Source of the DNA: Chitinophaga cymbidii
GTDB lineage: Bacteria > Bacteroidota > Bacteroidia > Chitinophagales > Chitinophagaceae
NCBI RefSeq assembly: GCF_007992715.1
Contig: NZ_BKAU01000001.1
Location: forward strand, 1,736,001 to 1,800,000
Direction: 5' to 3'
DNA: 64,000 nt
Both the position numbers and the translations under genes were made by a program. Positions within the stretch are counted from its first letter, which is position 1, and each line of letters starts with the position of its first letter. Below the pieces are notes generated by a model. The model made no database searches, had not been told where the DNA came from, and worked only from the letters and a program-made list of their open reading frames with translations. This document shows, piece after piece, positions 35,194 to 47,942 of this stretch.

Positions 35194-37062
35194 TTACCTT
35201 CCCATATAAACCATGAGAATTTGTACATCACTTGGATTTACGCCGCTGATCCTGCTGGCTTGTCCCAATGTTCGTGGTTTGATTCTCGTGAATTTCTGCC
35301 GGGCTTCGTTGGAAAGTGAAACCAGCTTCGTGTAATCAAAAGCATCCGGTATCACCAGATCTTCCAGCTGGCTCATTCTTTTTACCAGTTCATTTTCCTT
35401 TTCGATATACACATCATATTTCACCTGGATCTCTACCTGTTCCAATACTTCGCGCCCGAAATCCTTTAATGCATCAGCCACTTTAGGCAGACTGTTTTTC
35501 ATGGACATGATATCCAATCCCGGGCGAAGCAATACCTGGTGCGCGCGTTGTTTTTGTGTCAGCGGGGCGGAATTATTTTCATTCAGCCAGGCATTTGTTT
35601 CTTCCGGCTCGAGGGGAAGCTCTTTCAAAATAGATTTCACCTGGTCCACACCCGCCAGCTTGTCCCTTGTTTTTTGCATTCTCTCTTCTGTAGCAAGCCC
35701 CAGTTTATAGCTTCTTTCTGTTAAACGGAGGTCTGCATTATCCTGCCGGAGCAAGGTTCTGAACTCAGCACGGGAAGTGAACATGCGATACGGCTCATCC
35801 GTACCTTTATTGATAAGGTCGTCTATCAGCACACCAATATACGCTTCGCTGCGTTTCAGCACGAGCGGTTCCTGCTCTTTTACCTTGAGGTGAGCGTTGA
35901 TACCCGCCATCAAACCCTGGCAAGCCGCCTCTTCATAACCTGTAGTTCCATTGATCTGCCCTGCAAAAAAGAGGTTTGATACGTGTTTTGTTTCGAGTGA
36001 AAACTGCAATTGGGTAGGGGGGAAGTAATCATATTCGATGGCATATCCCGGCCGGAACATTCTTGCGTTCTCGAATCCGGGTACCAGGCGAAGGGCTTTT
36101 TGCTGCACATCTTCCGGCAGGGAAGTAGAAAACCCGTTCACATAGATTTCCACCGTATTCCAACCTTCCGGTTCTACGAATAACTGATGGCGTTCCCTTT
36201 CCGCAAAACGATTGATCTTGTCTTCAATACTCGGACAATACCTTGGGCCTACGCCCTGAATTCTTCCCTGGAACATGGGGGACCTGTCGAATCCCGTACG
36301 CAGGATGTCATGTACCTGCTCGCTGGTATATGTAATATGACAGCTTCTTTGTTGTTCAGGTTTTATCTTCTCTACGTCCATATAGGAGAACCCAACGATC
36401 TCGTCATCCCCTTTTTGCTCTTCCATTTTGGAATAATCAAGACTTCTTCCATCGATGCGGGGAGGTGTTCCCGTCTTGAGGCGGTCACTTTCAAAGCCGA
36501 GGGACACCAGTTGTTCCGTAATGCCGGTGGCAGCTTTCTCTGCTACGCGGCCTCCTCCAAACTGTTTATCCCCGATATGGATCACCCCATTCAGGAAAGT
36601 TCCATTAGTAAGCACCACCGCTTTTGCCTGGATTTCATGGCCGAGGCCGGTGATCACACCCTGACAAACCCCGTTTTTAATGAGGAGTCCCTTTACCATG
36701 TCCTGATAAAAGTCTACCCCCGAAGTATTCTCCAATGCCTCTCTCCACTTGGCAGCGAATAGCATACGGTCATTCTGGGTGCGCGGGCTCCACATAGCGG
36801 GACCTTTACTCCGGTTCAACATCCTGAACTGGATCATGGACTGGTCTGTTACGATACCAGAATATCCCCCGAGCGCATCGATCTCCCGTACAATCTGCCC
36901 TTTTGCAATACCTCCCATGGCGGGATTACAGCTCATCTGGGCGATGGTCTGCATATTCATTGTGACCAGCAATACGCGGGAACCCATATTTGCGGCAGCG
37001 GCGGCAGCTTCACATCCGGCATGGCCGGCCCCGACAACAATAACATCGTAAGATGGGAACAT
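35194..37062 (-). CDS. mnmG: tRNA uridine-5-carboxymethylaminomethyl modification enzyme MnmG (GidA)
   Basis: 622 residues from the ATG at 37062; a 12-codon in-frame extension is less likely. FAD-binding motif VVGAGHAGCEAA at the N-terminus, CNPAMGGIAKGQIVREIDALGG, the SRAEFRTLLRQDNADLRL motif and a helical C-terminal domain ending in SRISGVNPSDVQILM. With MnmE it modifies U34 of certain tRNAs. gidA genes lie next to the replication origin in many bacteria, and here it is beside parS-like sites and about 3 kb from the predicted oriC. A perfect -7 box is at 37080-37087. Confidence 0.97.
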   Translation of the reverse strand: MFPSYDVIVVGAGHAGCEAAAAAANMGSRVLLVTMNMQTIAQMSCNPAMGGIAKGQIVREIDALGGYSGIVTDQSMIQFRMLNRSKGPAMWSPRTQNDRMLFAAKWREALENTSGVDFYQDMVKGLLIKNGVCQGVITGLGHEIQAKAVVLTNGTFLNGVIHIGDKQFGGGRVAEKAATGITEQLVSLGFESDRLKTGTPPRIDGRSLDYSKMEEQKGDDEIVGFSYMDVEKIKPEQQRSCHITYTSEQVHDILRTGFDRSPMFQGRIQGVGPRYCPSIEDKINRFAERERHQLFVEPEGWNTVEIYVNGFSTSLPEDVQQKALRLVPGFENARMFRPGYAIEYDYFPPTQLQFSLETKHVSNLFFAGQINGTTGYEEAACQGLMAGINAHLKVKEQEPLVLKRSEAYIGVLIDDLINKGTDEPYRMFTSRAEFRTLLRQDNADLRLTERSYKLGLATEERMQKTRDKLAGVDQVKSILKELPLEPEETNAWLNENNSAPLTQKQRAHQVLLRPGLDIMSMKNSLPKVADALKDFGREVLEQVEIQVKYDVYIEKENELVKRMSQLEDLVIPDAFDYTKLVSLSNEARQKFTRIKPRTLGQASRISGVNPSDVQILMVYMGR

Positions 37063-37079
37063 ATTCGAAATTTGAGATG

Positions 37080-37087
37080 CAAAGTTA
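37080..37087 (-). promoter_or_regulatory. mnmG -7 element
   Basis: TAACTTTG on the minus strand, 17 nt before the ATG. The -33 element is poor. Confidence 0.5.
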
Positions 37088-37133
37088 CATATAAACATTG
37101 ATGCGAAGGTGCAAAAACTGCAGGGGGAAGGGG

Positions 37134-37151
37134 ATGTTCCACGTGGAACAT
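37134..37151. promoter_or_regulatory. parS-like ParB-binding palindrome, site 1
   Basis: Perfect 18-bp palindrome ATGTTCCACGTGGAACAT, whose 16-bp core TGTTCCACGTGGAACA (37135-37150) is a one- or two-base variant of the well-known parS consensus. It is identical to the site at 37778-37795. Confidence 0.88.
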
Positions 37152-37735
37152 TGGTTAGGTGTTATATAACATTTCGTTTAGAAGCCAATAACTATTCGGG
37201 CTATAACATAAAGAGAGCTGAAAGATATCAGGAATATTCTCTACTCCACCACCTATGCAAAATTCATCCAAGATTTCATCCCAACCAAAACAACACATTC
37301 TCTTGTTCTTAGAGAAACGGCCATAAACAAACAATGAAACGGGGATACGTCCTTTCCGGAAGAATGCAACATCCAACAGTAAATCCATTTAACTACAATA
37401 TCTCAGTTGATCTAATGATAGCAATATGATAGAATACATTCATCTTCTAATCCAATAGTTCAAAAAGATGGGGTTCAAGACATCCCCCATAAAATATCCA
37501 TATCCTTTGATACGGAAGTTTTAAAATATTGCATTAAGGTAGGTAGACCTTCCAGTGCCGACTATACGTATCCGGCAACCGAAACCGGAACGATTCCATC
37601 CAGCCTGCGCGAAGCTATATTTGAAATTGATATTACAGACGATGACATTCATCGAAATCGATGAAATGATCGTACTTGACTTAGGCGATGGCAACGATGA
37701 CCTGTGGAGTACCAGATATAATTGTAACTTCTCAA
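37152..37735. other. AT-rich interval between the two parS-like sites, no supported gene
   Basis: About 580 bp. Short open frames (77 residues at 37155-37388 minus, and plus/minus frames around 37555-37754) lack start-site context and family resemblance. Base composition is lower in GC than nearby genes. It may be spacer within a centromere-like region or decayed coding sequence. Confidence 0.45.
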
Positions 37736-37765
37736 AAGAAAAAAAGCCGGGCACTAACGACCGGC
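37736..37765 (-). terminator. ybeY terminator
   Basis: Stem GCCGG/CCGGC (37746-37750 and 37761-37765) with a 10-nt loop and a T-run on the minus strand. The second parS-like site lies between the ybeY stop and this hairpin. Confidence 0.65.
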
Positions 37766-37777
37766 ATCTAAAAAGAA

Positions 37778-37795
37778 ATGTTCCACGTGGAACAT
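37778..37795. promoter_or_regulatory. parS-like ParB-binding palindrome, site 2
   Basis: Second perfect copy of ATGTTCCACGTGGAACAT, 644 bp from site 1 and 8 nt past the ybeY stop. Together they bracket the mnmG-ybeY interval. Confidence 0.88.
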
Positions 37796-37803
37796 CTATA
37801 AAG

Positions 37804-38226
37804 CTACTTATCGAAATACAATCTCAAATACTCATCCTCCTTTTGCCGCATCAATTCAATTTCCTTCTTTGTCTTATCCCTATAACCACAAAGATGCAAG
37901 GCCCCATGAAACATCACCCGGTGCAATTCATAATTCTCCGTTACCTCGTATTGTTCGGCGTTCTCCTTTACTCTGTCTATGCTGATGTAAATCTCACCCT
38001 CTGTTACTTCCGGGTCTGGTGACAACTCAAAAGTCACAATGTCCGTATACGTATCATGATTCAAAAACTGCTGATTGATCTGGAGCAGATACTCATCTGT
38101 ACAGAACACATACTGCAAACGGACCAATCCCTGTTCTTCTCTCTTGAACAACTCCCGGATAAATTCTTTGAGCCTGGTTCTCTCTTTCAGACCCACCTTT
38201 ACTTCATGCGCAGAAAAATAAATCAT
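37804..38226 (-). CDS. ybeY: rRNA maturation endoribonuclease YbeY
   Basis: 140 residues. Contains TDIVTFELSPDPEVTEGEIYIS and the metal site HGALHLCGYRD near the C-terminus. The first two His of the family HxxxHxxxxxH motif are present; at the third position the sequence reads D/K rather than His. I recall the same in other Bacteroidota homologues, but this was not checked. It processes 16S rRNA 3' ends and helps ribosome quality control. A near-consensus TAATTTTA ends 4 nt before the ATG. Confidence 0.92.
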   Translation of the reverse strand: MIYFSAHEVKVGLKERTRLKEFIRELFKREEQGLVRLQYVFCTDEYLLQINQQFLNHDTYTDIVTFELSPDPEVTEGEIYISIDRVKENAEQYEVTENYELHRVMFHGALHLCGYRDKTKKEIELMRQKEDEYLRLYFDK

Positions 38227-38266
38227 ATTGTAAAATTATAGTGAAAAGTTGGATACTGCCGCTTCA

Positions 38267-38300
38267 TTTTTTGCATATTGACGTTTGTGCGATACCTTTG
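38267..38300 (+). promoter_or_regulatory. feoA promoter
   Basis: TTTTTTG (38267-38273), 19 nt, TACCTTTG (38293-38300): full match to the housekeeping promoter. Leader of about 50 nt. Confidence 0.75.
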
Positions 38301-38358
38301 CGCTGTAATTACTGAGGCCCTCGTCACAGATTGGTTTTAACTCGCTCAACAAAATAAT

Positions 38359-38592
38359 ATGATCAAATTATCATCCCTCATGATCGGAAAAAGTGCAGTG
38401 ATCCGGGAATTTGAAAAAAGCGACCTTCATATCAAATTGATGGAAATGGGATGTGTTCCCGGAGAAACGGTAAAGGTTGAAAAAATAGCTCCGCTCGGTG
38501 ACCCCATCTGCATCATTGTAGCAGGATATAATTTATCACTCAGGAAGACAGAAGCAGATCATATCTGGGTAGAAGAAATTCTCGCAGTGTAA
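38359..38592 (+). CDS. feoA: FeoA-domain ferrous iron transport protein A
   Basis: 77 residues, one SH3-like FeoA domain: LSSLMIGKSAVIREF at the N-terminus, LMEMGCVPGETVKVEKIAPLG in the centre and NLSLRKTEADHIWVE at the end. A small cytoplasmic partner of FeoB. It stands alone with its own promoter and terminator, 34 kb from feoB and on the opposite strand, rather than in the usual feoAB operon. Confidence 0.93.
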   Translation: MIKLSSLMIGKSAVIREFEKSDLHIKLMEMGCVPGETVKVEKIAPLGDPICIIVAGYNLSLRKTEADHIWVEEILAV

Positions 38593-38614
38593 ATTGAAAA
38601 CTGTAAGATATTTT

Positions 38615-38651
38615 AAGAAGGATGTCCGGGAAAGGCATCCTTCTTTTTTTA
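38615..38651 (+). terminator. feoA terminator
   Basis: Perfect 10-bp stem AAGAAGGATG/CATCCTTCTT (38615-38624 and 38636-38645) followed by a T-run. Confidence 0.85.
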
Positions 38652-38910
38652 CCTTCAAGATTCAGTGGCACATGGGAGCATCCTCTAACATCAGGAGAAA
38701 ACATCCTTCAAAAAATACCCGAAATAAAATACCTAGCTCCCCTATATCCATCCTATGACTAATGCCAGATAAAAAGCCATCTATGATTAATTCCCCCATA
38801 TTACCCGCAATTTCTCATCCAATTTCCCGCTCAAAAAACCACAAAATTGAATTAATAATATGAATATCAAAATAATATATAGTATCAAAAAAATAAACCT
38901 ACACATCACA
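38652..38910. other. AT-rich intergenic region between feoA and nadA
   Basis: Convergent gap. No ORF with coding character on either strand, no DnaA box and no clear repeat; only terminators at both ends. Confidence 0.5.
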
Positions 38911-38936
38911 AAAAAAGCCGCCAAAAACTGACAGCT
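38911..38936 (-). terminator. nadA terminator
   Basis: 8-bp stem with two G-U pairs, AGCTGTCA/TGGCGGCT on the minus strand, loop of five, then a T-run; 23 nt past the nadA stop. Confidence 0.7.
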
Positions 38937-38958
38937 CTATAATCATTCAAAAAACTTC

Positions 38959-39966
38959 CTACAACCCCGCCTTCGCACTGATATCCAGCATGCGATCGAT
39001 CGGCTTCTTCGCAGCGATCCGAAGCTCCTCGTCCATCGTGATCTCCGGCTCCTCGTACTCCATGCACAGGTATAATTTCTCCAGCGTGTTCAATTTCATA
39101 TGCGGACAATCATTACATGCACAGGCATTGTTCGGCGGCGCCGGGATGAAAGTCTTCTGCGGATTTTCCTTTTGCATCTGGTGAAGAATGCCGGTTTCCG
39201 TCACCACGATATATTCCTGCGCATCGTCCCGCTGTGTATATTTCAGCAGTCCCGTTGTAGAACCAATGAAATCAGCAATCGCCAGAACAGCAGCTTCACA
39301 TTCCGGATGCGCAATGATCTTTGCCTTCGGGTGCCGCACTTTCAACCGCGTGATCTTTTCCAGGCTGAAAATCTCGTGCACCATGCAGGCGCCGTTCCAC
39401 AATACCATATCACGACCCGTTTTCTTGATCAGATAAGATCCCAGGTTCCGGTCCGGCGCAAAAATGATCGGCTGGTCCTTCGGAACACTTTCAATGATCT
39501 TTTCCGCATTGGAGCTGGTACAAATAATATCGCTGAGCGCCTTGATGCCCGCGGAACAATTAATATAGGAGATCACGATGTGATCCGGATATTTTTCACG
39601 GAACTTCCTGAACAGCTCCGGCGGAGCGCTGTCTGCCAGTGAGCATCCTGCCTTCAGGTCAGGGAGGAGCACCTTTTTCTGCGGGCTGAGGATCTTTGCC
39701 GTTTCCGCCATGAAGTGAACGCCGGCAAATACGATAATGTCAGCGTCCGTTTTAGCGGCCTGCTGGCTAAGCCCGAGGCTGTCCCCAATATAGTCCGCCA
39801 CGTCCTGTATATCCGGTTCCTGGTAATAATGCGCCAGGATGATTGCATTTTTTTCTTTCTTCAACCGGTCGATCTCCGCGAAAAGATCCAGCTGAACATC
39901 CACCTCTATGTCCAGGAATCCTTTTTTCTGTAAATTTTTTTTCGCTTCCGTTAATGCCGTAATCAT
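38959..39966 (-). CDS. nadA: Quinolinate synthase A
   Basis: 335 residues from the ATG at 39966. An upstream in-frame extension of 32 codons runs into the predicted origin and is not supported. The three Fe-S cysteine regions are visible: [19 protein letters not shown] and [15 protein letters not shown]. NadA condenses iminoaspartate with dihydroxyacetone phosphate to quinolinate in NAD synthesis, using an oxygen-sensitive 4Fe-4S cluster. Neither nadB nor nadC is in the window. A perfect TACATTTG box on the minus strand (40060-40067) may be its promoter. Confidence 0.97.
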
Positions 39967-40720
39967 AATTATAGAATTAATTTTCTTTTTAAAAAGAAGA
40001 AAAAGCCCACTACTATTAGGGGTGTGAATATGGGGGTAACTCCCATTCACTACCATATACAAATGTACTTGTTATATTTTTTTCCGGCACTATCCACATG
40101 AAATTAACAGGCTGATTTCCCGCCACTATTGAATTTGCGCTGCTTTATCCACAGTGTTGACAAGATTTTTCGTGTACAACTTTTCAGCGCGTCCGGTATT
40201 AAGAAAATGTTAAAACAGGGGAGTTATGCACGTCGGTAAATCCGGAATTAATCCGCCGCAGAAAAACAAATTTAGTTTTACCTACTTCCCAACGGCTGTT
40301 TACCCACATAAAATGCGCTTAACCCCATGGTTGTTAACATAAACTGTGGAAAAACAGACCCACTTTTCTGAAATTTTTCCCCGGCCGGATTTTTAAGATT
40401 TTTGGCGGGATAATTCACAAATTTCTGTGGATTATATACAGTATATGCTTATTTTGTGGATAACCGGCGCAGCATTCCACGTTGCCCGCCACCCGCAGAC
40501 CCAGTGATCGCGGGCAAATCAACGGATCTTTAACAACCGGTACCTGTGTATTAAATAAAAACAAAATGTGGATAATGTGTGAATCAAGCCAAAAAACGAC
40601 CCTCCCGAAATACCGCTCAAATCCTTTGCTGTATTGACTTTCCGGGCTTAAAAACCTATTTTGCAGTTACAACTATTTTATTCTATTTTTGCTACCTCTA
40701 AAATTTAGACTATATATTAT
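39967..40720. other. oriC: Probable chromosomal replication origin (oriC)
   Basis: 754-bp gene-free, partly AT-rich interval between nadA and the ppiD-like gene. DnaA boxes: perfect TTATCCACA at 40145-40153 (+), and perfect TGTGGATAA, the reverse form, at 40455-40463 and 40567-40575. One-mismatch boxes are CTATCCACA 40090-40098, TTACCCACA 40300-40308, TGTGGAAAA 40345-40353 and TGTGGATTA 40426-40434; TTATGCACG at 40224-40232 is weaker. Left boxes are mostly in + orientation and right boxes in reverse, so they face each other. AT-rich stretches at 40060-40082, 40391-40403 and 40664-40720 could be unwinding elements. Two parS-like sites and mnmG lie 2.5-5 kb to the left. dnaA is not in the window. 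Confidence 0.78.
40659..40691 (+). promoter_or_regulatory. Promoter of the ppiD-like gene
   Basis: TTTTG (40659-40663), 20 nt, TATTTTTG (40684-40691), 29 nt before the ATG, at the right border of the predicted origin. Confidence 0.65.
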
Positions 40721-42835
40721 ATGTCAGTTATTCAGAAAATCAGGGACAAATATGCCGTTGTCATTATCGTATTGATATGCCTGGCTATTGTGAGCTTTTT
40801 GCTGCAGGATGTTTTTTTCGGTAGAAACTCAATGTTCAATCAATCTACCAAAGTAGGTAAGGTAAATGGAGAAGAGCTGGACTACCGCGAGTATCAGCAA
40901 CGTATCGAGAACATGCAGGAAAGAATGCGCCAGCAAATGCCGGGCGCCAGCCTGGATGACCAGACACAACAATATATCCGTGAACAGGCATGGGACCAGT
41001 TCCTCCGTGAAAAGATAATGCAGGCGCAGTATGAAGAGCTGGGCATAGAAGTAACCCAGGCTGAAGTGACCGACCAGATCTATGGTAAGAACCCCCACCC
41101 CTTGGTTCTCCAGTATTTCGCCGATCCCCAGACCGGACAATTCGACCGCTCCGTATTACAGCGTGTAGCCGAACAGGTTAAGCAGGACCCTACCGGCCAG
41201 ATGAGCCAGCAGCTCCTCGCATTTGACCAGATGATCACTGAATACCAGAAGAATCAAAAATATATCACGCTCGTGCACCAGGGTATCTATTACCCCAAGT
41301 GGCTCGCGCAAATGGAACAGCAGAGCACAGCAGAAAATGCCAACATCAGCTACGTGCAGGTGCCTTACGCTTCTATCGCGGACAGCACCATCAAAGTAAC
41401 CGATGCTGAACTGAATAAATATATACAAGACCACAAAGCGCTCTTCGAAGTAAAAGAAAACCGCAGAGTAGAATATGTAGCTTTCAACGCACTGGCTTCC
41501 GCCGCGGATTCCGCGCTGGCGCTCACAGAATTTGAAAAGCTGAAAGCTGAACTGGATACCACGCCCGACGTTGCCGGATTTATCAAACTCAATTCCGAGC
41601 TTCCTTATTATGATGGTTACGCTCCGCGCAATTCCATTCAGGTGCCTGCAAAAGATTCCATCATCGACCTGCCGGCGGGAAAAATATATGGCCCTTACCA
41701 GGACAACAACCTGCTGGTATACGCAAAAGTGATCGACCGAAAAACATTGCCCGACACGGTGAAGATCCGCCAGATACTGGTGGCCATCCAGCCCGGCCTG
41801 TCTGACTCCCTCGCGAAAAAACGCGCGGACAGCCTCGAATCTGTGATCCGCGGCGGTGGCGATTTTGCAGCACTCGCAGCAACGTTCTCCGATGATCCGA
41901 ACAGCAAACAGAACGGCGGCGAATACACCCTCACCCCGAACGGATATTTTGCCAATGAACTGCAAGCCGTAAAAGACTTTGCTTTTGAAGGTAACAGCGG
42001 TGCGCTGAAAGTGGTGAAAATGCCGATCGGTTACGCAGTGGTGAAGATCACCGAGCAGAAGAACTTCGGACCCGCGCTGAAGATCGCTTACCTCGCCAAG
42101 CGTGTGGACGCCAGCTCCACCACCAGCAGCGAAGCGCTGGCGCTTGCCAATGACTTCGCTTCAAAGAACCGCGACTGGAAAACATTTGAAAAAACAGTAC
42201 AGGAACAAGGTCTGGATAAACGCCAGCAGAACCTCGGCGCGATGGACTTCGTAATCCCGGGCCTCGGCAGCTCCCGCGAAATCGTAAGCTGGGCTTACAA
42301 AGCAGACAAAGGAGAAATAAGCCCTGTGTTCACACTGGAAGATAAATTTGTAGTAGCCGTGCTGACCAGCGCACGTGAAGCCGGCACCGCACCGCTGGAA
42401 GAAGTTCGCCCGCAGGTAGAAGCGGAAGTGAAGAAAAACAAAAAAGCAGATCAGATCATTGCAAAAATGAAATCGCCTGCCACAATAGAAGCTGCCGCCA
42501 GCGCAACCAATCAGCCGGTGCTGACGGTTGACGCTATCAGCTTTGCCACGCCCTTCATTCCGTCCCTCGGCTTCGAGCCCCGCGTAAGCGGCGCCGCTTT
42601 TAACAAAGCATGGGGTACCGCTAAAGCTACCGCTCCGATCCAGGGTAATGGTGGTGTGTACGTGCTGAAAGTGAACACCTACGTTCCTTCCGGCCAGTCC
42701 CCGCTCGATTATGAGCAGCAACGCACAGCCTACGAACAGAACCTCCGCCAGCTGACGGACAACCAGCTGTTTGAAGCGCTGAAAAAGAAGAGCGACGTTA
42801 AGGATGACCGTGCGTCTTTCTTCACAGCAAACTGA
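40721..42835 (+). CDS. PpiD/SurA-type peptidylprolyl isomerase, membrane anchored
   Basis: 704 residues. One N-terminal membrane helix (residues ~13-30), a SurA_N-like chaperone region (KVNGEELDYREYQQRIENM), and a parvulin-type PPIase domain at about 345-450 (VKIRQILVAI, GGGDFAALAATFSDDPNSK, GGEY). The C-terminal part has a second, more diverged parvulin-like or substrate-binding region. Helps outer-membrane protein folding in the periplasm, anchored in the inner membrane. Long for PpiD (~620) but typical of this phylum. Confidence 0.93.
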   Translation: MSVIQKIRDKYAVVIIVLICLAIVSFLLQDVFFGRNSMFNQSTKVGKVNGEELDYREYQQRIENMQERMRQQMPGASLDDQTQQYIREQAWDQFLREKIMQAQYEELGIEVTQAEVTDQIYGKNPHPLVLQYFADPQTGQFDRSVLQRVAEQVKQDPTGQMSQQLLAFDQMITEYQKNQKYITLVHQGIYYPKWLAQMEQQSTAENANISYVQVPYASIADSTIKVTDAELNKYIQDHKALFEVKENRRVEYVAFNALASAADSALALTEFEKLKAELDTTPDVAGFIKLNSELPYYDGYAPRNSIQVPAKDSIIDLPAGKIYGPYQDNNLLVYAKVIDRKTLPDTVKIRQILVAIQPGLSDSLAKKRADSLESVIRGGGDFAALAATFSDDPNSKQNGGEYTLTPNGYFANELQAVKDFAFEGNSGALKVVKMPIGYAVVKITEQKNFGPALKIAYLAKRVDASSTTSSEALALANDFASKNRDWKTFEKTVQEQGLDKRQQNLGAMDFVIPGLGSSREIVSWAYKADKGEISPVFTLEDKFVVAVLTSAREAGTAPLEEVRPQVEAEVKKNKKADQIIAKMKSPATIEAAASATNQPVLTVDAISFATPFIPSLGFEPRVSGAAFNKAWGTAKATAPIQGNGGVYVLKVNTYVPSGQSPLDYEQQRTAYEQNLRQLTDNQLFEALKKKSDVKDDRASFFTAN

Positions 42836-47411: not shown

Positions 47412-47942
47412 TCAGGGCGTGTGGATGTTGCAATGGCACCATTGCACGAAGAGCAGGTGGTAGCTCCACATGATCCGGCGTATATCCCTTTCCGCCGTTT
47501 CGTGACCGTTGTGCAGCGCGAGGGATTTGACCACGCCATTTTCCTCCAGTCCATAGTAAAACCCGAAAGGTGTGGATAATGCAAAACCGTTTTTAACAAA
47601 ACCGGGATGGGACTCAAAAGCGATGCTGCCTACGGTGTGACTGCGGAGCAGGGCTTTCAGCTCGAAAAGCGGAATGAAAAGCTCCGCCGCGCCGATCCGG
47701 CGCCGGACGTGCAAACGGAGAAAGGAGCGCAATCCATCAGCAGTGCTTTTGCTGTGGTTGATGCGGATGTCTTTGATCTCGTCCATTTCTTCACCGACGG
47801 TGCACAGCTTGTCGATGTTGATAAACTCGGCCTGCCGCCAGTCATCTCCGCTAAGGGTTACCGTAAAATCCGGGTACGCAGGCAAGTTGGTCATAATAGG
47901 GCGTTCGTCGGAGACGGTAGGCAGGGAAAACCAGGTATCCAT
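47412..47942 (-). CDS. Hypothetical protein
   Basis: 176 residues, no signal peptide and no membrane segment. Contains SGDDWRQAEFINIDKLCTV and a C-terminal end MWSYHLLFVQWCHCNIHTP. I do not recognise the family. Codon use resembles the neighbours and the frame is longer than the antisense alternatives. It lies between the DUF3472 gene (67 bp away) and the rlpA-like gene (54 bp away), all on the same strand, so it may be part of one transcription unit. Confidence 0.6.
   Translation of the reverse strand: MDTWFSLPTVSDERPIMTNLPAYPDFTVTLSGDDWRQAEFINIDKLCTVGEEMDEIKDIRINHSKSTADGLRSFLRLHVRRRIGAAELFIPLFELKALLRSHTVGSIAFESHPGFVKNGFALSTPFGFYYGLEENGVVKSLALHNGHETAERDIRRIMWSYHLLFVQWCHCNIHTP

Follow-up and report, generated by a model that had tools for sequence, protein, structure and literature searches.

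The window analysed here is a stretch of 64,000 nucleotides (bases 1,736,001–1,800,000 of contig C1, which is 2,674,825 bp long) from the genome of Chitinophaga cymbidii, a 6.63 Mb draft in 18 contigs. Within it, a gap of 754 bp (39967–40720) separates the start codon of nadA (ATG at 39966, minus strand) from that of a ppiD-like gene (ATG at 40721), and the genes to the left of the gap are feoA, ybeY and mnmG (Table 1). The ppiD-like protein shares 77% identity with its counterpart in a metagenome bin that carries the name Chitinophaga niabensis, and 73% with that of C. alhagiae.

The gap contains three perfect and four one-mismatch DnaA boxes in 486 bp (40090–40575). Read from left to right, three forward boxes are followed by four reverse ones. 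A first-pass annotation made from the sequence had described just this arrangement, with three perfect and at least four one-mismatch boxes within about 490 bp of gene-free DNA, mostly forward on the left and reverse on the right, and it had also noted mnmG and two parS-like sites just to the left and the absence of dnaA. The box at 40426 is half of an inverted pair, whose partner in the alignment is ATTCACA at 40413. The window has one more perfect box, at 47571, which is outside the group.

Both copies of the parS-like palindrome sit between mnmG and ybeY, 2.3–2.9 kb left of the first box. They are the only exact copies of TGTTCCACGTGGAACA in the whole genome. They are also the only 16-mers on C1 within two mismatches of TGTTTCACGTGAAACA, which we take to be the parS consensus and used as the search reference; two other places in the genome lie within that distance, on C2 and C4, and neither is identical to TGTTCCACGTGGAACA. 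The single-copy dnaA gene is at C1:942682, 833 kb from the gap, and its 3.5-kb locus contains no DnaA box with up to one mismatch. The DnaA protein of this genome has a normal DNA-binding domain, the helix-turn-helix domain PF08299.

Table 1. Features of the nadA–ppiD region, in window coordinates
Feature	Position	Strand	Basis and remarks
mnmG (gidA)	35194..37098	-	Pfam PF01134
parS-like palindrome TGTTCCACGTGGAACA	37135..37150	.	motif search of genome
parS-like palindrome TGTTCCACGTGGAACA	37779..37794	.	motif search of genome
nadA, quinolinate synthase	38959..39966	-	Pfam PF02445
Putative nadA promoter, -7 element TACATTTG	40060..40067	-	read from sequence; conserved in Chitinophaga rows
Predicted oriC core, 7 DnaA boxes (up to 1 mismatch) between presumed nadA and ppiD promoters	40085..40600	.	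box scan and column conservation
DnaA box CTATCCACA, 1 mismatch	40090..40098	+	1–2 mismatches in 13/13 Chitinophaga rows
DnaA box TTATCCACA, perfect	40145..40153	+	0–1 mismatch in 13/13 Chitinophaga rows
DnaA box TTACCCACA, 1 mismatch, not conserved	40300..40308	+	2–4 mismatches in other 12 rows
DnaA box TTTTCCACA, 1 mismatch	40345..40353	-	0–1 mismatch in 13/13 Chitinophaga rows
Candidate unwinding element 1, weak helix inside right box array	40410..40459	.	50-mer stability -55.4 kcal/mol
DnaA box TAATCCACA, 1 mismatch	40426..40434	-	1–2 mismatches in 13/13 Chitinophaga rows
DnaA box TTATCCACA, perfect	40455..40463	-	0–1 mismatch in 13/13 Chitinophaga rows
DnaA box TTATCCACA, perfect	40567..40575	-	0–1 mismatch in 13/13 Chitinophaga rows
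Putative ppiD promoter, TTTG-N20-TATTTTTG	40660..40691	+	read from sequence; conserved
Candidate unwinding element 2, overlaps presumed ppiD promoter	40675..40724	.	50-mer stability -50.6 kcal/mol; strongly conserved in Chitinophaga
ppiD/SurA-like peptidyl-prolyl isomerase	40721..42835	+	Pfam SurA_N_2, Rotamase_3

The box cluster and other elements of the gap

Chance can be rejected as the explanation of the box cluster. The 1.005 Mb of C1 that we read through contains 237 boxes with up to one mismatch, which gives a Poisson P of 1e-9 for seven in 754 bp, and the 41 perfect boxes of the whole 6.63 Mb genome give a P of 2e-8 for three in the gap. The chance expectation is 0.2–0.3 boxes with up to one mismatch; Markov copies of the gap (n=2000) had a mean of 0.26 and a maximum of 3. 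No other 500-bp stretch of the gapless 1.005 Mb around the window has more than two boxes; nine more samples of 20 kb include one, L005, with four boxes, all of the one-mismatch kind. Dinucleotide shuffles of the whole window reached four perfect-type matches in 10 of 100 cases, so this count alone is unremarkable, and it is the clustering of the boxes, not the number of perfect matches in the window, that is the remarkable feature. Two pairs of perfect boxes occur elsewhere in the genome (C7:240890–240954 and C9:124397–124423) and are possibly DnaA titration or regulatory sites.

Promoter elements for nadA and ppiD were called on the basis of TAnnTTTG, which we take to be the relevant consensus. 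As the two presumed promoters are divergent, an origin in the gap would be flanked by transcription leaving both ways. Several weak 50-mers are found near the boxes, and some of these are also promoters or gene starts. The stretch at 40410–40459 is weaker than the 99th percentile of the window (-57.2 kcal/mol), and that at 40675–40724 is the weakest helix of 39000–42000. Either could function in unwinding, to judge from helix stability, and we make no choice between them. We also scanned for DnaA-trios, defined in PMC8287927 by a box, a spacer of up to 16 bp and three or more trios. In the two orientations the mean scores of 49 regions upstream of nadA (described below) were 2.10 and 2.00, versus 1.47 and 1.33 for one shuffle each. 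A score of 6 was reached by none of the 49 regions, nor by the shuffles, and no clear run was seen.

Other elements accompany the presumed promoters. The block GCCCACTACTATTAGGGSTGTGAATATG at 40005–40032, in the presumed nadA leader, hardly varies within Chitinophaga and can still be recognised in Cnuella. On the minus strand it reads as a short G+C stem closing a loop of 10 bases, with T's after it, and it is possibly a nadA leader element. A search of 37000–41000 against Rfam, this block included, gave nothing above threshold; a sub-threshold match to a yeast snoRNA (20.4 bits, gathering 60) was taken as chance. A conserved CTACTATTAG block near 40010 was considered as a trio run and set aside, since its position falls within the presumed nadA leader and no box was seen on the expected side. 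Upstream of the presumed ppiD promoter, at about 40618–40646, there is an imperfect inverted repeat around TTTACTGTATT. It is decayed in the window and occurs at the homologous place in several of the loci L065–L074, with arms like GAAACCC/GGGTTTY (e.g. L070).

Conservation among relatives and linkage to nadA

At 13 named loci (12 from Chitinophaga and one from Cnuella), nadA, the gap and ppiD are kept, with 5–8 boxes each, and at least one exact parS copy occurs between mnmG and ybeY in all 12 of the Chitinophaga loci. In an alignment of 13 Chitinophaga rows, including the window, the box columns have a majority identity of 0.957 versus 0.734 outside them, and none of 501 circular shifts matched the value for the box columns. 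Six of the seven boxes keep two or fewer mismatches in all 13 rows, the exception being the box at 40300.

The ppiD-like protein was matched in all 117 family genomes searched, in some of them weakly or partially (e.g. G029 and G041). Among the best 30 of the 117 ppiD loci, the window itself included, 27 have a divergent nadA next door, and 22 have at least three boxes, counted in the gap or, if no nadA was seen, over as much as 1 kb of the sequence upstream of ppiD. The loci were the best-scoring ones, or were hand-picked because they were closed or had nadA elsewhere than beside ppiD, and are thus not a random draw. The 700 bp upstream of nadA were then counted in 49 distinct genomes, our own included, after removal of seven duplicate loci. 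Loci with no nadA match fall outside this set (L082, probably at a contig end, L095 and L103), and the genomes of the latter two (G021 and G108) enter it through other loci.

These 49 regions have a mean of 5.2 boxes. The first-pass annotation had held that the same gap without boxes in relatives would speak against an origin; at least three boxes are present in 44 of the 49 regions, and fewer than three in five. Control regions upstream of other genes had three or more boxes in only 3 of 72 cases (mnmG 0/20, ybeY 3/20, corA 0/12 and feoA 0/20). The three ybeY cases (L066, L067 and L071) have a second group of 3–4 boxes in the 700 bp upstream of that gene, possibly an accessory origin element.

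Sites within one mismatch of parS were found in 7 of 10 closed family genomes, each of which has at least one site no more than 15 kb from the gap upstream of nadA. Ten of the 11 sites in these closed relatives are near that gap, and one, in G104, is 185 kb off. No site with up to one mismatch was found in the closed genomes G109, G004 and G106.

Genomes in which nadA and ppiD have parted indicate which neighbour the boxes follow. The two genes are 29–105 kb apart in G021, G109, G017 and G106, and about 3 kb apart in G108 and G020; these six genomes belong to three genera and may therefore represent only three independent events. Upstream of nadA there are 6 boxes in G021, 5 in G109, 12 in G017, 6 in G106, 7 in G108 and 6 in G020. 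Upstream of ppiD, in the five of these genomes that were counted, there are 2 (G021), 1 (G109), 0 (G017), 1 (G106) and 1 (G108). In G017 the 12 boxes, five of them perfect, lie within about 320 bp, and a parS-like site is 4 kb away. Since the box clusters remain at nadA in all six split genomes, the origin is bound to nadA, and its anchor is this gene and not ppiD, mnmG or dnaA. The earlier placement of an origin between nadA and ppiD needs one correction: the boxes travel with nadA when the pair parts, and "upstream of nadA" is the better wording.

Nucleotide skew and rRNA operon orientation

Skew calculated from 20-kb samples of C1 was noisy, and we therefore read through C1:1,215,001–2,220,000. 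Cumulative GC skew across this region is lowest at 1,790,284, a position 14 kb away from the boxes. When the 5-kb skew bins are divided into a left and a right set, the best split falls at 1,790,001 (t 4.3). The trough is about 100 kb broad, with cumulative values of -2644 at 1.695 Mb and -2632 at 1.795 Mb, and an alternative split at 1.690 Mb scores t 3.9. From 34 to 45 kb of the window the skew is negative in every 1-kb bin, to the left of the boxes as well as to the right. A skew minimum at another locus, which the first-pass annotation had named as counterevidence, was thus not seen in the 1.005 Mb of this one contig, within the breadth of the trough.

Two closed genomes were sampled for comparison, and in both the best-fit interval, 155–160 kb wide, includes the place upstream of nadA. 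For the congener G097 (6.31 Mb; 40 samples of 20 kb), the best-fit origin falls in the interval bounded by the 5.535 and 5.690 Mb samples, and the gap is at 5.567 Mb; with 155 kb between these samples, the fit has meaning as an interval and not as a point. The unexplained skew variance is 0.377 for the best fit versus 0.572 with dnaA (4.777 Mb) as the origin. With the terminus fixed opposite, the greatest contrast is at 5.62–5.74 Mb, 50–175 kb from the gap, and the gene-strand bias has its maximum at 5.71–5.74 Mb. For G021 (3.34 Mb; 20 samples), the interval of best fit for the origin runs from the 0.490 Mb sample to the 0.650 Mb sample, with the nadA start at 0.640 and ppiD at 0.669 Mb, and dnaA (2.54 Mb) as the origin gave no fit of the right sign. 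The gene-strand bias of G021 is greatest at about 1.9 Mb, at odds with the place of nadA. In G017, perfect TTATCCACA boxes switch strand near nadA (24:3 on the left versus 13:28 on the right, p 4e-6), with the best strand split at 2.42 Mb and nadA at 2.375 Mb. This 9-mer is thus strand-biased by replichore in G017, and strand counts of perfect boxes could signal the origin.

Eleven genomes were searched for 16S genes, which identified 18 operons in eight closed family genomes. Each of the 18 is directed away from the nadA/ppiD place, and 7 of them are directed away from dnaA. The reference point was nadA in five genomes, and ppiD in three genomes where nadA adjoins it. No 16S match was obtained in G000 (the C. 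cymbidii genome), G097 and G103, so the test covers members of the family outside the genus of the window. In the eight closed relatives dnaA is 0.74–3.0 Mb from the candidate origin and nowhere adjacent to it. In six of the eight it is 0.32–0.43 of the circle away, so that the nadA and dnaA models are well separated there. From the ten dnaA loci of relatives (L105–L114), positions alone were used.

A predicted replication origin upstream of nadA

We conclude that the gap upstream of nadA is very probably the chromosomal replication origin (oriC) of Chitinophaga cymbidii, as the first-pass annotation had proposed; the skew, the boxes of relatives, the rRNA orientation and the proximity of parS in relatives support this. 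From the anatomy of the locus, DnaA, encoded 833 kb away, would bind the two opposed box arrays, three forward boxes on the left and four reverse boxes on the right. The bound protein would oligomerise and melt an adjacent AT-rich stretch (40410–40459 or 40675–40724), after which helicase could be loaded and the origin fire, with two forks departing left and right. ParB would load on both parS sites to the left and segregate the new origins.

It is very improbable that the origin is instead centred nearby, on mnmG/parS or ybeY–feoA, with the nadA boxes as accessory sites or as one part of a bipartite origin. The sampled skew is too coarse to separate places a few kb apart, two flavobacterial origins are given with mnmG as their marker in the sources cited below, and some ybeY-upstream regions do carry boxes. 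In G104, which retains nadA next to ppiD, the gap has five boxes, and a group of six, two of them perfect, lies about 0.8 kb downstream of nadA (L180:12478–13150) and is the richest of the 20 kb read. Against such a centre stand the mnmG-upstream regions, none of which reaches three boxes, the recurrence of the nadA cluster with its constrained box columns, and the Cnuella locus L072, which has boxes at nadA and yielded no mnmG in its 18 kb.

A DnaA-binding site of another kind, for titration or regulation (datA- or DARS-like, or controlling the nadA and ppiD promoters), with the origin elsewhere, is very improbable. DnaA also acts as a transcription factor, and the boxes do sit between two presumed divergent promoters, but in several genomes the skew, the direction of the rRNA operons and the parS sites all point to this place. 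In addition, the 1.005 Mb that was read holds no second cluster, the sample L005 from elsewhere having four one-mismatch boxes, and the locus of dnaA itself is free of boxes. A conventional origin at dnaA, with an incidental box cluster upstream of nadA, is scarcely credible: convention favours it, the sequence of the closed genome G104 starts 0.4 kb ahead of the dnaA domain match, and the 16S orientation also fits dnaA in G078 and partly in G104 and G109, but the dnaA locus lacks boxes, the 16S operons agree in a minority of cases, and the skew has the wrong sign in G021 and fits worse in G097.

An origin upstream of nadA has features in common with known systems and also differs from them. 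Origins of the E. coli/B. subtilis type are DnaA-dependent, intergenic and AT-rich, with clustered TTATCCACA boxes, a GC-skew switch and parS within kilobases. The Chitinophaga gap resembles this type (PMC10225481) in its clustered TTATCCACA boxes, its intergenic, AT-rich setting, its skew switch and the parS sites kilobases away. Unlike it, the gap is not beside dnaA, is flanked by nadA and a ppiD-like gene and has no clear DnaA-trio run. The oriC of E. coli and Yersinia lies between gidA and mioC (PMC10225481). In Chitinophaga mnmG (gidA) is likewise near, but the boxes are about 3 kb from the mnmG end of the parS interval and not at mnmG.

Origins remote from dnaA have been predicted in other Bacteroidota, as the excerpts of the following sources report. 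In Mariniflexile litorale dnaA did not fit the skew, and the Ori-Finder origin was put next to mnmG (PMC11278836; a figure legend there swaps the origin and terminus labels relative to the text). The Ori-Finder origin of Algorimicrobium is also given as mnmG (PMC12843772), and that predicted for Elizabethkingia meningoseptica, which contains three boxes, lies 1.87 Mb away from dnaA according to the stated coordinates (PMC8994065). The Chitinophaga origin is like these in being remote from dnaA or in dnaA being unfit as its place. The three are single-genome software predictions in which, in the excerpted parts, nadA is not named, and the Chitinophaga case differs from them in its nadA anchor, derived from split genomes within one family. 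Further sources report that Blattabacterium has no dnaA and a skew that puts the origin in dapB (PMC2768785), that P. gingivalis is drawn with oriC at dnaA (PMC5771137), and that automated origin annotations are not always accurate (PMC13342612). Among the literature matches listed, none by its title concerned Chitinophaga or a nadA-linked origin, and DoriC may already hold such predictions. Bacteroidota origins remote from dnaA are thus already in print; the place, the nadA marker and the test with split genomes are new as far as our literature search goes.

Relatives of this bacterium seem to have their origin at the corresponding place next to nadA. This places the origin for a much-sequenced family whose closed genomes include at least one (G104) that starts at dnaA, and it yields a simple marker rule, that the origin lies upstream of nadA. 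If true, the rule would correct replichore maps, depth-based estimates of growth rate and origin predictions based on dnaA or mnmG. The gap is also a candidate fragment for a replicating plasmid in Chitinophaga; an oriC plasmid has reportedly been made for Cytophaga hutchinsonii. The parting of nadA and ppiD, in turn, reveals which neighbour an origin stays bound to in evolution.

We suggest, tentatively and with more doubt than confidence, that for much of the Bacteroidia, beyond this one family, the ancestral origin is the nadA-upstream region, passed on jointly with this gene of NAD synthesis, and that the nadA promoter or its strongly conserved leader may couple NAD metabolism to initiation. 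If the class-wide reading is true, the skew minimum should follow nadA wherever nadA exists. A nadA match was found in 38 of 60 genomes of the class, and the 22 without one mean that the rule cannot hold throughout it. In three genomes of the class only perfect boxes were sought, and the link that they provide is suggestive and not more. G135 has no perfect box near nadA, one of the 16 perfect boxes of G168 is 272 bp upstream of nadA, and the closed genome G150, with 77 perfect boxes in 3.9 Mb, has three of them upstream of the nadA match, at distances of 224, 292 and 1074 bp.
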